Assembly: GCF_900112165.1 (NCBI RefSeq)
Contig: NZ_FOKY01000009.1
Coordinates: forward strand, 1 to 38,555
Direction of reading: 5' to 3'
Source: Brevinema andersonii
GTDB lineage: Bacteria > Spirochaetota > Brevinematia > Brevinematales > Brevinemataceae
DNA length: 38,555 nt
The first letter of the stretch is position 1; each line of letters starts with the position of its first letter. Below are positions 20,992 through 29,414 of this stretch, one piece after another. The notes below the pieces were generated by a model. That model saw nothing but the letters and a program-made list of their open reading frames with translations. It searched no databases and was not told the DNA's origin. Both the position numbers and the translations under genes were made by a program.

Positions 20992-21963
20992 TTATTTTGA
21001 ACGAAGTTCACGTGGGAGACGCACAAAATACACTTTATTATTAAGAAATTCCGGGAACCAAATTTTATCCTTGTATACACTAAAATCTGCTGCAGAGTTA
21101 ACACCCGTACCTTTTGATACAAGTTGTTTGGTATTGGCATCGAATATATAGAAGCCCGTATCCCAATCGGAAACGATTACATATCCTTTAACATAAGCAA
21201 TGCCATCTAATTTGCCTCCCCCTAATGGTTCTGAGAGCCAGGGAGCAGATAAAGTGCCCACACTAAAATCATCGGTAGTAAATTGAAAATCATAAATATT
21301 TCCTTTAGCAGGCTGACCTCCAAATGTGGAATCTACTAAGAAAAGTTTATTCGATTCGGCATCATAAGTAATTCCGTTGATACCGTTTAGTGTTGCATTT
21401 AAGCCTGTAATAGGAATAACTTGAACAATAGAATCCAAATTGGGACTGAGTGTTATGCGATATAATGTTCCACTTCCGGTATCTGACAATACAATTGTTT
21501 CCTTATTAATTACAGCAACATCATTAAGAAAACTAGCATCTGCAATATTAAAAGTGGTTATTACTTTTCCTGTAGCTACGTTCAATAATTTTACGGATGG
21601 ATGATCTGATACAACCATAACATCATCATTTAAAAAAGCAAACCCTTTAGGATCATCTAATTTTCCTACGAATAACTTTTCTACTTGCGTGCCGTCAAAG
21701 GCAAATCGTGTGAAAAACCCTGCACGCTTAGATTTTCTCGGCTGGCCTCCAAGATTGGCTACATATACCATATTATTATGAATAGCAACGCTTTCTGGAG
21801 TAGAAAATTCAGTGACACCCGAATCAACAATCAGAATTTGTTTTTCTGAAGCTCCTGAAGTAGCCAAATAACGCGGCCTACATGATTGTTGTGTTTTTTT
21901 TCCAGTTCCGCAAGCAGAGGTTAACAGTGCCGCAACTAAGATAATATATTTTTGTACGTTCAT
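20992..21963 (-). CDS. lipoprotein with NHL/SMP-30-like beta-propeller
   Basis: The signal peptide ends in the lipobox LLTSAC, with Cys18 as the likely lipidated residue. The rest reads as short repeated beta-propeller blades, each with a hydrophobic strand and an Asp/Gly turn (for example FSTPESVAIHNNMVYVANLG, LDDPKGFAFLNDDVMVVSD, FLNDVAVINKETIVLSDTG, GINGITYDAESNKLFLVDS). Such propellers bind ligands or act as lactonase-like enzymes; no catalytic residues can be named here. AGGAGG precedes the ATG. It follows the SDR gene on the same strand after 65 bases, so both may share the A13-spacer promoter. Confidence 0.8.
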   Translation of the reverse strand: MNVQKYIILVAALLTSACGTGKKTQQSCRPRYLATSGASEKQILIVDSGVTEFSTPESVAIHNNMVYVANLGGQPRKSKRAGFFTRFAFDGTQVEKLFVGKLDDPKGFAFLNDDVMVVSDHPSVKLLNVATGKVITTFNIADASFLNDVAVINKETIVLSDTGSGTLYRITLSPNLDSIVQVIPITGLNATLNGINGITYDAESNKLFLVDSTFGGQPAKGNIYDFQFTTDDFSVGTLSAPWLSEPLGGGKLDGIAYVKGYVIVSDWDTGFYIFDANTKQLVSKGTGVNSAADFSVYKDKIWFPEFLNNKVYFVRLPRELRSK

Positions 21964-22028
21964 ATAATGTGCCTCCTATAAGATTTCTTTATTTTACCAT
22001 GCTTATGTATTACAAATCAATTTATTTG

Positions 22029-23030
22029 TTAAATATTATGTTGTGTTTTTTTCCACAAATACTTGTGCTGATGTGCCCATGCTATGGTATCACGGATTGT
22101 TTCTTCGAACGGGCGTACCGTATAGCCAAGTTCTGTTTTGGCTTTGTCGTGGCGAAGGTCAGCATTAGAGAACAAAATCGCCAACGATTCAGGAGTGAGG
22201 AGTGGTTCTAAATTAAGAAGAGAATAGAGTGGAGACATAATATGTGCCCCAAAATATGCCAAAGATTTCGGCATATTAACAAAAAAATGTTTCCTTCCAA
22301 GCACTTTATCGACAATTTTTTTCTGATCGCTGACACTGAGAATATGTCCTGATAGAATATAACGTTCGCCAATTGTGCCTTTTTGGTCTGCCAGCAAGAT
22401 ACCTTGCACGACATCTCGCACATCCACGAAATTATAAGCCCCTTTAACTCCCATGCAAAGCCATGTTGTCATTGCGTTAATGACCAACCCCATTTGTGAT
22501 GGCATGTAATCGTGAGGGCCTACAACTCCCGCAGGATGCACGATAACAGCATTAAGGCCTTTATTTTTGACAGTATTTAAAAGATAATTTGTAGCAATAG
22601 CTTTGGTTTGACCATATTTTCCTAAGGCTGTTTTTTCACATACAGGTGTATTTTCTGTGAGTGGCTCGCCATGAGGTCTGTCACTTATTGCATGTACAGA
22701 ACTTGTATAAATCAATTTGATGCCCTGTTCCGAGCAAATATCGCATACGTTTTTTGTACCGTTGACATTTGTATCATACAATTCTTTGTTAGAGCCGGGC
22801 AAAATGGAAATAACAGCCGCTAAATGAAATACTTTTTCTGCACCTTGAAATGCTTTTTGCAACGATGCCTTATCACGTATGTCTCCATAAGCAATTTCAA
22901 CATCTAAGTCGTCAATCGGAATAGTAGTTGACCCCGGACGAACTAATACTCTTACTTTTTCGCCATTTTTGAGTAACTCACGTACTAACACGTTGCCGAT
23001 ATGGCCTGTAGCACCTGTAATAACAATCAT
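22029..23030 (-). CDS. extended SDR, NAD(P)-dependent epimerase/dehydratase family
   Basis: The Rossmann signature VITGATGHIGNVLV stands at the N-terminus. HLAAVIS, YTSSVHAIS and the catalytic YGQTK (Tyr-x-x-x-Lys) follow in order, and VHPAGVVGP is the usual substrate-side motif. The 333 residues match the dihydroflavonol-reductase/3-beta-hydroxysteroid-dehydrogenase-like branch; the substrate is unknown. GAGAGG precedes the ATG with a 7-base spacing. The promoter spacer contains a run of 13 A, so expression may switch. Confidence 0.85.
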   Translation of the reverse strand: MIVITGATGHIGNVLVRELLKNGEKVRVLVRPGSTTIPIDDLDVEIAYGDIRDKASLQKAFQGAEKVFHLAAVISILPGSNKELYDTNVNGTKNVCDICSEQGIKLIYTSSVHAISDRPHGEPLTENTPVCEKTALGKYGQTKAIATNYLLNTVKNKGLNAVIVHPAGVVGPHDYMPSQMGLVINAMTTWLCMGVKGAYNFVDVRDVVQGILLADQKGTIGERYILSGHILSVSDQKKIVDKVLGRKHFFVNMPKSLAYFGAHIMSPLYSLLNLEPLLTPESLAILFSNADLRHDKAKTELGYTVRPFEETIRDTIAWAHQHKYLWKKTQHNI

Positions 23031-23071
23031 AATAATGCCTCTCTTAAAAGTTAAAATAAAAATAATAGCAT

Positions 23072-23100
23072 ATTGTATTTTTTTTTTTTTGAAAAGTCAA
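23072..23100 (-). promoter_or_regulatory. promoter with an A13 run in its spacer (possible phase-variable promoter)
   Basis: On the minus strand TTGACT (23100-23095) and TACAAT (23077-23072) are exactly 17 bases apart. Thirteen of the 17 spacer bases are one A run (T at 23078-23090 on the plus strand). Gain or loss of one or two A would move the spacer off its optimum. Confidence 0.7.
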
Positions 23101-23353: not shown

Positions 23354-23382
23354 TTGATATTTAGAAAAAATTAATTTATAAT
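23354..23382 (+). promoter_or_regulatory. sigma-70 promoter of the outer-membrane barrel gene
   Basis: TTGATA (23354-23359), 17 bases, TATAAT (23377-23382), 33 bases before the ATG. The rest of the gap 23101-23353 is AT-rich and I see nothing else in it. Confidence 0.7.
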
Positions 23383-23415: not shown

Positions 23416-24081
23416 ATGAAGTATTATATGGCTTTCTCCTTCTTTTTATTGTTCAGTGTTCCATTGTTCAGTCAACAAACAGCCCCGCTTTCTTTAAAAG
23501 CTCAGAAAATCCAAGCAGAACTTGAAAATGAAAGTCTGCCTGAGCTTCCAAATACGGAAAAAGTTGCAGAAAACTCTGAAATCAAACAAGAAATCCCTGA
23601 TTCTTTAAATATTGATTCTCAGGAAGTTGTCAAAAAAAGCCGAACCGTACCTAACGAAGGAAAACCTTTTTTTACATTGTCGGGTGGCCTTGCCCCATAT
23701 CAGGCAAACTTAGGCATTTTAAAATATTTTATTCCAGAATGGTGGGGACAAATCGAAATCGGTATGACTATTTTTCCCAATGTGCCTGTTAACGATTATT
23801 ATACTGCTATACAATTTTTTAAACCTTATATAGCATTAAAAATTATTACCGGTTATTCATTTTTTACAAAAAAACAATTTGAAATGTCTCTGTTTGTGCA
23901 AGCGCAAGCTGCATTTATCGGTACCACGGAAATTCCTATTATTCCTGCAGCTGGATTTCGGTTTACAATCAGCTTTTTCTGGCTTGATGTAGCGGTTGGC
24001 TATGCGGTAACGGTTGGGGGTACGTTAAGTCCTATATTTAGCGGTGTACAACCTGTAATTGCCTTAGGATTCCGTTTCTGA
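23416..24081 (+). CDS. predicted outer-membrane beta-barrel protein
   Basis: A signal peptide (about residues 1-19, ending LFSQQ) is followed by a polar, acidic linker (about 20-80). About 135 residues of alternating aromatic and small residues then look like an eight-stranded barrel: GKPFFTLSGGLAPY, WWGQIEIGMTIFP, FKPYIALKIITGYSFF, FEMSLFVQAQAAFIG, ISFFWLDVAVGYAVTVGG. The C-terminus IALGFRF ends in Phe, as outer-membrane insertion signals do. GAGGAGG precedes the ATG. I do not recognise a specific family. It is the first gene of a two-gene unit with the reductase-like gene. Confidence 0.65.
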   Translation: MKYYMAFSFFLLFSVPLFSQQTAPLSLKAQKIQAELENESLPELPNTEKVAENSEIKQEIPDSLNIDSQEVVKKSRTVPNEGKPFFTLSGGLAPYQANLGILKYFIPEWWGQIEIGMTIFPNVPVNDYYTAIQFFKPYIALKIITGYSFFTKKQFEMSLFVQAQAAFIGTTEIPIIPAAGFRFTISFFWLDVAVGYAVTVGGTLSPIFSGVQPVIALGFRF

Positions 24082-24102
24082 CGTTATGGAGGATCAATTA
24101 TT

Positions 24103-24873
24103 ATGAGTGAAGGATTGTTTTATAATGTAACTTTTTCTGTCTTTCTTTTACTCCCTTTTATAGTTTTTTTAGGGTTGGTTTTTGGTAAAGTAAAAGCTCC
24201 TTATGGTCGTTATACAACTCCGGCATGGGGTCCTATCATTCCTGCTAAATTGGGATGGATCATTATGGAAGCACCGTCTTCTATTTTGTTTCTGGTGTTT
24301 TTTTTGCTGGCACCAAGTTTGACACCAGGACAGATAGCCCTTTTTTTTATTTGGCAATTTCATTATTTTTATCGAAGCTTTATTTATCCTTTTCTGTCGC
24401 AGCACAGTAAGGGAATGGCTGTAGTATTAATGTTTTCAGCGTTAATATTTCAAGTTTTTAATACATACTTCCAAGCTCGCTGGATCTATAAGTTTGCACC
24501 TCCTGATTTTTACGGAGATGGCTATTTGACGTCTTGGCAATTTATTTTGGGATTGGCAATATTTTTGTTGGGTACTTTTATCAATCGTCAGTCTGATACT
24601 ATCTTAAGGCATTTACGTTCATCTTCGGATAATAAATCGTATAAAATTCCATATGGAGGCTTATTTCGCTTGGTTTCGTGTCCTAATTATCTTGGTGAAA
24701 TTATTATTTGGTTAGGATGGGCTATAATGTTAAAATCTTGGGTTGGTTTTGCATTTTTCTTATGGACTGTTAGTAATCTTGTCCCTCGCGCGATGATGAA
24801 TCATCAATGGTATCTGGAACGATTTCCTAATTATCCGAAAGATCGAAAAGTATTAATTCCCCATATTTTTTGA
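24103..24873 (+). CDS. steroid 5-alpha-reductase (SRD5A/DUF1295) family membrane protein
   Basis: The protein has about six hydrophobic helices over 256 residues. Its C-terminal half carries the family signature: INRQSDTILRHLR, YKIPYGGLFRLVSCPNYLGE and IWLGWA. Family members are integral-membrane reductases of C=C bonds in sterols, polyprenols or long acyl chains, using NADPH. Bacterial substrates are mostly unknown. GGAGG (24088-24092) precedes the ATG. The stop codon lies at the loop of a perfect 23-bp inverted repeat. It follows the barrel gene after 21 bases. Confidence 0.85.
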   Translation: MSEGLFYNVTFSVFLLLPFIVFLGLVFGKVKAPYGRYTTPAWGPIIPAKLGWIIMEAPSSILFLVFFLLAPSLTPGQIALFFIWQFHYFYRSFIYPFLSQHSKGMAVVLMFSALIFQVFNTYFQARWIYKFAPPDFYGDGYLTSWQFILGLAIFLLGTFINRQSDTILRHLRSSSDNKSYKIPYGGLFRLVSCPNYLGEIIIWLGWAIMLKSWVGFAFFLWTVSNLVPRAMMNHQWYLERFPNYPKDRKVLIPHIF

Positions 24874-24912: not shown

Positions 24913-25838
24913 AGGTTATAGTGCGCAACCGACTATAAAGATATTGCATCGCATATATTTTGGTTTTGATGGAAGAAAAGATCTTTATCAAGAGTATCTA
25001 GAAACATGGAAAGACCAACTACCTAACTATGAAATTAAATTATGGAGTGCTAAAAATTTGCCGTTGGATATAATTATTTTACTTGCACAATGGCTTCTCA
25101 AAAAAACGGTGCATTTCTAAGCGATTATTTTCGTTGGTGGGTATTACGTGAATATGGAGGGATTTATTTAGATGCTGATATAGAAATAGTTAATGGAGAA
25201 AAATTTAATCAGGTAGTAGAAGAATTAGAACAAGGCCAACATCATAGTTTCATGGGATTTTCAGGTAATGGATTGCCCACATATGACTGGATTGCAGAAT
25301 CTGTTGGCTCGAAAAAAACTCTCCTTTATCAGTGTTTGTGTGTAGTTTATATGATAATATGGGACCTTTATCTTATTTGGATAAGCATTCTATTACAGCT
25401 CCAAATTTATTAGCTTGCTACTTTGCATACCATGGTTATTTTATTGAAAATAATGGTAAATATTCGGGAGAGGTCGATAAAATTATCGATATTTTGGGAG
25501 TCTGAATATATCCAAAAGAATATTTTCATCCGGTAGAAATTTATCCCTATCCTTTAATTGAGAAACTAGGGATAAATCTTTGTGCACCGAATGTCACTGA
25601 AAATACATGCCTTTGTCATCATGCTTCTTCTTCATGGTTGCCAGAAACGCATATTTCGCATCAAAGGTTCCGGAAAGTGTTGGAAAAAAGACCTATGTTT
25701 GCTGATTATTATAAGAGTTTAGAGGAAGTAGAACAAGCTGCACGTGAAACAGAAATTTTTTTTAGCGATGGCATGACAAAAAGATTTTCTTTTATGAAAG
25801 CACTTTTGCAAAAAATGAAGAGGTTGACGAAAATCTAA
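24913..25838 (+). pseudogene. broken DXD glycosyltransferase (capsular polysaccharide type)
   Basis: Translation in pieces recovers a full-length relative of the intact gene at 27506-28396: ILHRIYFGFDGRKDLYQEYL, then SDYFRWWVLREYGGIYLDAD with the metal-binding DAD, then a C-terminal part. Four lesions are visible. The Shine-Dalgarno AAGGAGG is followed by ATAGTGCG, with no in-frame start. A frameshift lies near 25065-25075. A second lies in the A7 run at 25312-25318. A TGA at 25503-25505 stands where the intact copy has Arg (GVRIYPK), consistent with CGA to TGA. The last piece runs to the TAA at 25836-25838. It could also be an OFF phase if slippage dominates, but the nonsense codon argues for decay. 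Confidence 0.88.
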
Positions 25839-27505: not shown

Positions 27506-28396
27506 TTAACTTTTTAGTAAGGTATTAATTTTGTGAGGAATTTTTAAGACAAACTGCCATATTTTTATTAAAATATGTTGCATTTTGTGAGGTTTTGAGC
27601 CTTCTGTTTGAGTTGTAGCAATAAAATAATCTTTTAACATGGGTCTTTGCGTAAGGGTTGCTTGTCCTTTGTTGAAATAGGCAGATTCTTCTGTATGCCA
27701 AGAGCACCCATAGTGGTGACAAAGTGCAGTCTGATTAGGGTTGTAGTCACGTAGGAAAAAGACTGAGGATCCAGCAGTATGAGTATCATAATAGCAGAGA
27801 GGTGAAAAATATGCTTTAGGATATATTCGAACTCCTGCTAAATCTGTAATAGCTTCACAATGAGTGAACTTTCCTAATTCGTGAGTACGTTTACCTTTTT
27901 CCATAAAATATAAAGACAAAAGTTGGGGTGCTGTACAAAATGTCTTACGCCAGTGACGTAGAGGGCCAAGATTTTCGTATACTGTGCACATGAAATTTGC
28001 AAGTTCAGAATTTTGTTTGCAAGCCATGGAATGCGCCGTATAATATCGTGCATCTGTATCAATGCCTACAAGAGCATGGTTGTCGGACTGTTCGAATTCT
28101 TCAATATATTGATTAAAAAGCTCTCCATTAACTATTTCTATATCAGCATCTAAATAAATCCCTCCATATTCACGTAATACCCACCAACGAAAATAATCTC
28201 CCAGAAACACAGCATCTTTTTCTTTGGTGTGAATACTGACATATTCATTTAAATCCATAGGAAGATTCTCTGCGTTCCAATGCATAATTCTATATTCCGG
28301 AAATTGTTCTTTCCATGTTTCTAGATATTCCTGATACAAATCTGGCTTACCATCAAAACCAAAATATATTCTATGTAATACTTTTAATTCTCCCAT
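27506..28396 (-). CDS. DXD-motif glycosyltransferase (OCH1/capsular polysaccharide type)
   Basis: The N-terminal VLHRIYFGFDGKPDLYQEYL and the nucleotide-sugar/metal site GGIYLDADIEIVNG mark the GT family with a sugar-binding DXD region (Gly_transf_sug type), used for surface polysaccharide or protein glycans. 296 residues; no membrane helix. I chose the ATG at 28396, with AGGAGA five bases upstream, over a TTG one codon earlier. It follows its paralogue on the same strand after 9 bases. It shares an identical 77-base block (28122-28198) with the broken copy at 25123-25199. Acceptor and donor are unknown. Confidence 0.85.
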   Translation of the reverse strand: MGELKVLHRIYFGFDGKPDLYQEYLETWKEQFPEYRIMHWNAENLPMDLNEYVSIHTKEKDAVFLGDYFRWWVLREYGGIYLDADIEIVNGELFNQYIEEFEQSDNHALVGIDTDARYYTAHSMACKQNSELANFMCTVYENLGPLRHWRKTFCTAPQLLSLYFMEKGKRTHELGKFTHCEAITDLAGVRIYPKAYFSPLCYYDTHTAGSSVFFLRDYNPNQTALCHHYGCSWHTEESAYFNKGQATLTQRPMLKDYFIATTQTEGSKPHKMQHILIKIWQFVLKIPHKINTLLKS

Positions 28397-28405
28397 CAAT
28401 ATCTC

Positions 28406-29368
28406 CTAAAGCTTTATGGTTTGAAGTTTTATTTTTTTGTATATTAAGCAGCATAATTTAAATATTTTACTGCTTAATTTGCGTATTATGTTGTTTTGTG
28501 GGAAGACATTATAAAGTTTATTCAGTATTTTTTTAAACAAATTTAATAATTTATTGAAAGATTCTTTATGACTATGATCTACAGCTGGAATTTTCATTGT
28601 TTTCAGGTATTCTTGAAGTTCATGAAAGCGCCGTGCTTGTTTTTTTTCTTTTGCATATTCAGAGTCTGCATGGTGATTTATATTGAGATTGCTGAATAAG
28701 TGGTATACACACGTATTTTCTGTATAATTCAAAGTTTTGCCGGTCAAACCAAATTTAGGCGAAAAATATTCTTGAGGGTATATTTTGATGTTTGCATGTA
28801 TTTCAGGCTGATCTATAATAGGGTAACCATTATTTTTTGTATACCCGTTCTCCAGGAAATATAATGTAATCAGTTGCGGACCAAGTAAGTTCCTGCTTTC
28901 TTTCCAGTGCCATAGAGGTCCTGATAAATATTGATCATACATCATAAGCATAAAGTTCGCAAGATCGGAATTAGGCTTGAGGGCTACAGTTTGAGCGGTC
29001 GGATGTCCATTATTTTTTTCTTCAATGCCTAAAAATCCTTCATAAGCACGGGTTGAATATAATTCGTTTAAAAGAGAATCTAATTTTTTACCATTAATGA
29101 TTTCACAATCGGCATCCAGATATATGCTTCCATGCTCTTTAAGCACAAACCAACGATAATATTCTGACAAAAAAACAGGTTGCTTATCTACTAATGCTTT
29201 TTGTACCCATGTATTGCCAGTTTTTAGCGGAAGATTAGAAGTATTCCATTGCATAATCGTATAGCCAGGCATTTCTGCTTTCCAGGTATCCAAGTAATGC
29301 AAAAATAAATCTTCGTAAGGAGGCATATTTGCAAAATAAATTCTATGAAGAATTTTAGGATTTTGCAT
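28406..29368 (-). CDS. DXD-motif glycosyltransferase, paralogue
   Basis: The protein has the same family layout as the gene after it: ILHRIYFANMPPYEDLFLHY, EYYRWFVLKEHGSIYLDAD and IINGKKLDSLL. A basic, helix-rich C-terminal extension (about residues 255-320) may attach it to the membrane. The start is taken at ATG 29368, with GGAAG (29381-29377) eight bases upstream; a TTG at 29383 would add five residues but has no ribosome-binding site. It is the first gene of a two-gene unit whose upstream region holds a short leader ORF and a terminator-like hairpin. Confidence 0.83.
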   Translation of the reverse strand: MQNPKILHRIYFANMPPYEDLFLHYLDTWKAEMPGYTIMQWNTSNLPLKTGNTWVQKALVDKQPVFLSEYYRWFVLKEHGSIYLDADCEIINGKKLDSLLNELYSTRAYEGFLGIEEKNNGHPTAQTVALKPNSDLANFMLMMYDQYLSGPLWHWKESRNLLGPQLITLYFLENGYTKNNGYPIIDQPEIHANIKIYPQEYFSPKFGLTGKTLNYTENTCVYHLFSNLNINHHADSEYAKEKKQARRFHELQEYLKTMKIPAVDHSHKESFNKLLNLFKKILNKLYNVFPQNNIIRKLSSKIFKLCCLIYKKIKLQTIKL

Positions 29369-29414
29369 AATAGGAACTTCCAAATTACATTAAAACGCAA
29401 AAATCCCCTTATTG

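Follow-up and report, generated by a model that had tools for sequence, protein, structure and literature searches.

The promoters closest to the one described here belong to tp0126 of T. pallidum and to the vlp genes of M. hyorhinis. According to PMC7864442, the tp0126 promoter carries a poly-G tract between its −35 and −10 elements, and transcription is best when these are 17 nt apart (Giacani 2015). The vlp promoters, as summarized in PMC10502178, switch via insertions and deletions in an adenine tract (Citti and Wise 1995). Spacer-length variation, which the first-pass annotation of this DNA had named as a known route to phase variation, is by these accounts established, including in a spirochaete (the tp0126 poly-G tract, PMC7864442). 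The site analyzed here, located upstream of an SDR gene within a 38,555-nt stretch of DNA (the window), appears to match both systems in geometry.

On the minus strand, positions 23100..23072 of the window read directly as TTGACT-TTTCAAAAAAAAAAAAA-TACAAT. The −35 hexamer TTGACT (23095..23100, minus strand) is separated from the −10 hexamer TACAAT (23072..23077, minus strand) by a 17-nt spacer (23078..23094, minus strand), which consists of TTTC followed by a homopolymer of 13 A (A13; 23078..23090, minus strand). On the plus strand the same bases appear as ATTGTA (23072-23077), a 13-nt T-run (23078-23090), and AGTCAA (23095-23100). With hexamers near TTGACA/TATAAT and a spacing within 16-18 nt, the site has the features by which sigma-70-type promoters were recognized. 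It was also listed by an independently run promoter scanner (10/12 hexamer matches) and was the top-scoring site within 100 nt upstream of the SDR gene, whose ATG lies 41 nt downstream of the −10 hexamer and is preceded by a Shine-Dalgarno-like AGAGAGG. From sigma-70 geometry, transcription would be expected to start at 23063..23067 (minus strand), roughly 5-9 nt past the −10.

Promoters of SDR orthologs were compared using a best-site search; when the divergent intergenic regions were aligned automatically, they came out of register because this region is longer in the genome under study (G000) than in its relatives. The comparison covered the other three genomes of the family (G001-G003, one sister genus) and four genomes from another family of the same order (G005, G008, G011, and G012). 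A −35/−10 site with 10-12 of 12 matches preceded the SDR ortholog in all seven: TTGACA-18-TATAAT in G001, TTGACA-17-TACAAT (the −10 of the window) in G002, TTGACA-17-TAAAAT in G003, and TTGACG-17-TATACT in each of the four genomes from the other family. Hexamers and spacing were kept across these orthologs and the spacer letters were unrelated. The A-run, sought in all orthologous spacers, was present in G000 alone, and no A12 runs were found across the whole genomes of G001-G003. Since orthologous genes in seven relatives keep the same architecture, the SDR promoter is very probably real and of sigma-70 type, and this pattern indicates that its hexamers and spacing are under selection and its spacer letters free. 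The first-pass annotation had reported TTGACT and TACAAT 17 bases apart with 13 spacer bases in one A run, which proved exact on re-reading of the sequence. Its assignment of the promoter to the SDR gene is borne out by the shared architecture before the orthologs, and the claim that 17 is the optimal spacing holds in the sense of a preferred spacing, found in six of the seven ortholog promoters (18 in G001).

Based on profile matches and orthologs, the SDR gene (22029..23030, minus strand) encodes a 333-aa HpnA-like protein of the NAD-dependent epimerase / 3-beta-HSD type. The nearest NCBIfam families were HpnA and SdmB, and the protein fell below both cut-offs, scoring 251 bits against HpnA (TIGR03466, curated cut-off 367.65) and 222 against SdmB (cut-off 600). 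Identification as the hopanoid-associated sugar epimerase HpnA was rejected on the first of these scores. Each of the three remaining genomes of the family had an ortholog with 60-63% identity, spirochaete matches occurred among the homologs, and a plasmid tblastn search with the SDR gene returned distant relatives only (under 60% identity). Together with the pattern of kinship and the genome size of 1.5 Mb, the spirochaete matches point to the phylum Spirochaetota, perhaps to Brevinema. The product is probably a conserved, cytoplasmic-type oxidoreductase acting on sugar- or steroid-type substrates, unlike typical phase-variable surface genes. Divergent from it lies a gene for a 221-aa protein with a signal-peptide-like start and no family match (23416..24081, plus strand), which adjoins the SDR gene throughout the family by synteny and has a promoter-like site of its own, TTGATA-17-TATAAT (11/12; 23354..23382, plus strand), identified by the scanner and the best-site search. 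It is followed by a gene for a 3-oxo-5-alpha-steroid 4-dehydrogenase-like membrane protein (the pair spanning 23416-24873, plus strand). Throughout the family both divergent genes remain beside the SDR gene, itself 3-beta-HSD-like, which suggests that the three products share a lipid or steroid-type pathway. Genes for DXD-type sugar transferases (...RIYFGFDGK...) also occur in the window in several copies, at 25090-25413 (plus strand) and 27506-29383 (minus strand), one of them apparently truncated.

On the other side of the SDR gene, across a 65-nt gap, is a lipoprotein-like gene (323 aa; 20992..21963, minus strand) with a weak SdiA-regulated (beta-propeller) profile match, which had been expected to switch together with SDR. 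A terminator scan of the gap found none, so read-through from SDR is possible. The gap also contains a candidate promoter for the lipoprotein gene itself, listed by the scanner as TTGATT-18-TAAAAT with TGG before the −10 (21991..22020, minus strand), and counterparts precede the orthologs in G001 (TTGACA-18-TATAAT, 12/12) and G002 (TTGACA-18-TAACAT, 10/12). The lipoprotein gene adjoins SDR in G001 and is located ~3.7 kb from it in G002, where a transporter-like gene lies immediately downstream of SDR. Joint switching is weakened by this non-adjacency in G002 and because the lipoprotein gene has a promoter-like site of its own here and in two relatives; the two genes probably do not switch as a strict unit.

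In the order's other family, the palindrome GAGTGAGTNNTCACTC lies just past the −10 of the SDR promoter (L014, L015, L016, and L022), and elements similar to it occur upstream of more distant homologs (L017, L018, L019, and L021). In its letters the palindrome resembles a TetR-type operator. No element of this type was found at the SDR promoter of the window's own family, which suggests that a repressor site present in the ancestor has been lost from the SDR gene of this family.

A13 exceeds every other homopolymer of the window in length. A whole-genome pattern search returned two A/T runs of 13 and none longer in the 1.5-Mb genome, and 24 runs of at least ten in total (19 of ten, 2 of eleven, 1 of twelve, and 2 of thirteen). 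To obtain expected numbers, 314 kb of the genome (20 stretches plus the window) served to train Markov models of order 1, 2, 4, and 6. Per 1.5 Mb, these models predicted 3.8-13.5 A/T runs of at least 13 (2 observed) and 75-180 of at least ten; with 24 of the latter observed, the genome is thus short of long A/T runs, and A13 belongs to the ordinary tail of the distribution. That tail falls off without the flat shoulder seen for poly-G tracts, and A13 did not show a tract length beyond base composition, which is a supporting and not a strictly defining sign of a switch. As for position, only one of the 24 A/T runs of at least ten sits wholly inside a promoter-like spacer, namely the A13 of the SDR promoter, which is joint-longest and leaves the spacer at its optimal length. 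When an A13 was placed at random, or the flanks of natural A runs were used, 0.16-0.29% of trials per strand gave a position inside the spacer of a 10/12 promoter. Chance would account for the length of the run but not for its location within a promoter spacer. Promoter-like sites in the genome occur about once per kb at 10/12 (23 at 9/12 within 3.4 kb), and others among them carry spacer A/T runs of 7-9. As the orthologs show, however, the promoter preceded the A-run, so what is left to ask is whether drift can turn a free, AT-rich spacer of this genome into an A-run.

The second A13 (C5:60604-60616) was considered as a sister switch and rejected, as no promoter surrounds it and it lies near a contig end; the long ORF that it overlaps at the extreme 5' end may in truth begin further downstream. 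At an A10 run (G000:C1:104601-104610, L064), a 327-aa frame that starts out resembling YifB/ComM stops and is continued in another frame, which may reflect a slippage frameshift, decay, or an assembly error. Another reading frame has at its 3' end an A10 that runs straight into a long (GA)n repeat (G000:C1:211249-211300, L065), and an ERERERER stretch likewise terminates the 322-aa sugar-transferase frame on C27 (L062).

Poly-G (G/C) tracts of 10-21 nt numbered 13 in G000, against ~0.25-0.5 expected. This G/C expectation was taken from Markov orders 1-4 because the tracts themselves had pushed up the order-6 counts and tract-bearing stretches were over-represented in the sample. The sister genomes contained none (G001), one (G003), and four (G002). 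The tracts of G000 (loci L050-L062) are located at C1:53041, C1:490200, C2:165231, C4:4182, C4:63242, C13:1, C13:27281, C16:22769, C20:18676, C21:13522, C24:15116, C26:13344, and C27:3221, and some lie at the ends or breaks of reading frames. The C27 tract is in or beside genes for a two-domain glycosyltransferase and a capsular-synthesis-type sugar transferase, the C26 tract is in frame within a sugar 4,6-dehydratase gene, the C24 tract is associated with a D12-class adenine methylase fragment, and the C4 tracts with a SprT-like protein and a membrane protein. These tracts are likely the contingency loci of this genome, and A13 does not share their statistical signature. When promoter spacers were checked for poly-G as internal controls, none of the G000 tracts lay in a recognizable one. 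A copy related to the DXD-type sugar transferases of the window adjoins the tract on C27. One repeat at the ends of C1, C2, and C13 (L051 12201, L052 8232, and L055 1) carries the same poly-G at lengths of 11, 14, and at least 11, and the sequence after it resembles a decayed transposase.

Probably, then, the site is an ordinary sigma-70-type SDR promoter with a slippage-capable spacer that is currently at its optimal length. RNA polymerase would read TTGACT and TACAAT at this spacing and start roughly 36 nt before the SDR ATG, and the free spacer would have drifted to, or expanded into, an A-run in the G000 lineage. Occasional slippage would add or remove one A, yielding a spacer of 16 or 18 nt and presumably a weaker promoter, and two or more steps might leave it nearly silent. 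The switching rate would be low, and slippage as a frequent or selected switch was not supported. Two observations count against the ordinary-promoter reading, namely that A13 is the sole spacer-contained run among 24 and that 13 poly-G tracts show slippage to be tolerated or used elsewhere. The first-pass annotation had instead proposed a promoter that phase-varies through its spacer length, with the sequenced state ON. In this rival reading, slipped-strand mispairing in A13 would alter the −35/−10 distance, with 17 nt ON, other lengths weak or OFF, and a mixed population. The SDR promoter and its spacing of 17 are supported from that proposal, and variation in the length of the run is not supported. 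The exact geometry of a long homopolymer wholly within the spacer, the mechanism established at vlp and tp0126, and the richness of this genome in simple-repeat tracts favor it; however, the sister-genus orthologs lack the A-run, A13 is not in excess, and the over-represented tracts here are poly-G and lie outside recognizable promoter spacers. In addition, the genome has intact copies of mutS and mutL, so that mismatch repair should correct most single-base loops arising in A13, and SDR is an enzyme with no evident surface role. A run of 13 A is long enough for some slippage even with mismatch repair, and on balance phase variation of this promoter is judged unlikely. It would be rather improbable for a poly-A spacer switch to turn a metabolic oxidoreductase, and not a surface antigen, on and off stochastically in a genome with poly-G contingency candidates.

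A stiff or curved A-tract might also be static and kept because it tunes promoter strength or the response to temperature or supercoiling. Here the rigid run does fill the part of the spacer adjoining the −10, and the runs of 7-9 at other promoter-like sites are in keeping with such a role, but the tract seems unneeded for SDR expression in relatives because the orthologous promoters are without it, making this explanation very improbable. Promoter-like sites are common in AT-rich DNA, and the A-run could by that token be a chance feature outside any promoter, with the SDR transcript beginning elsewhere; given that seven relatives keep the position, the hexamers, and the spacing and that no better site occurs in the 100 nt upstream of the gene, this is hardly credible.

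If A13 does vary, poly-A spacer switching, known from the surface genes of mycoplasmas, would gain a metabolic gene of another phylum as an example. If it does not, a long A-run in a spacer would be weak evidence of phase variation in an AT-rich genome unless accompanied by a composition control and orthologs. The poly-G tracts would be the better place in this genome to seek switching. As tp0126 is described in the source cited above, the SDR promoter shares with it a homopolymer within the −35/−10 spacer, an optimum of 17 nt, and probably the phylum; tp0126 differs in that its tract is poly-G, its gene encodes an outer membrane protein (an OmpW homolog), and the effect of length on transcription was tested, whereas the SDR tract is poly-A and known from sequence. 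The vlp promoters, again as summarized, likewise have an adenine tract in an AT-rich genome, but the surface lipoprotein genes that they drive are multi-copy, and their ON/OFF length variants are proven; for SDR, a single gene for an enzyme, no variants are known. With an ordinary sigma-70 promoter containing an AT-rich spacer, the SDR promoter has in common its hexamers, the 17-nt spacing, and a position 41 nt before the ATG, kept in relatives, and it differs in an unusually uniform spacer, 13 of whose 17 bases form one homopolymer.
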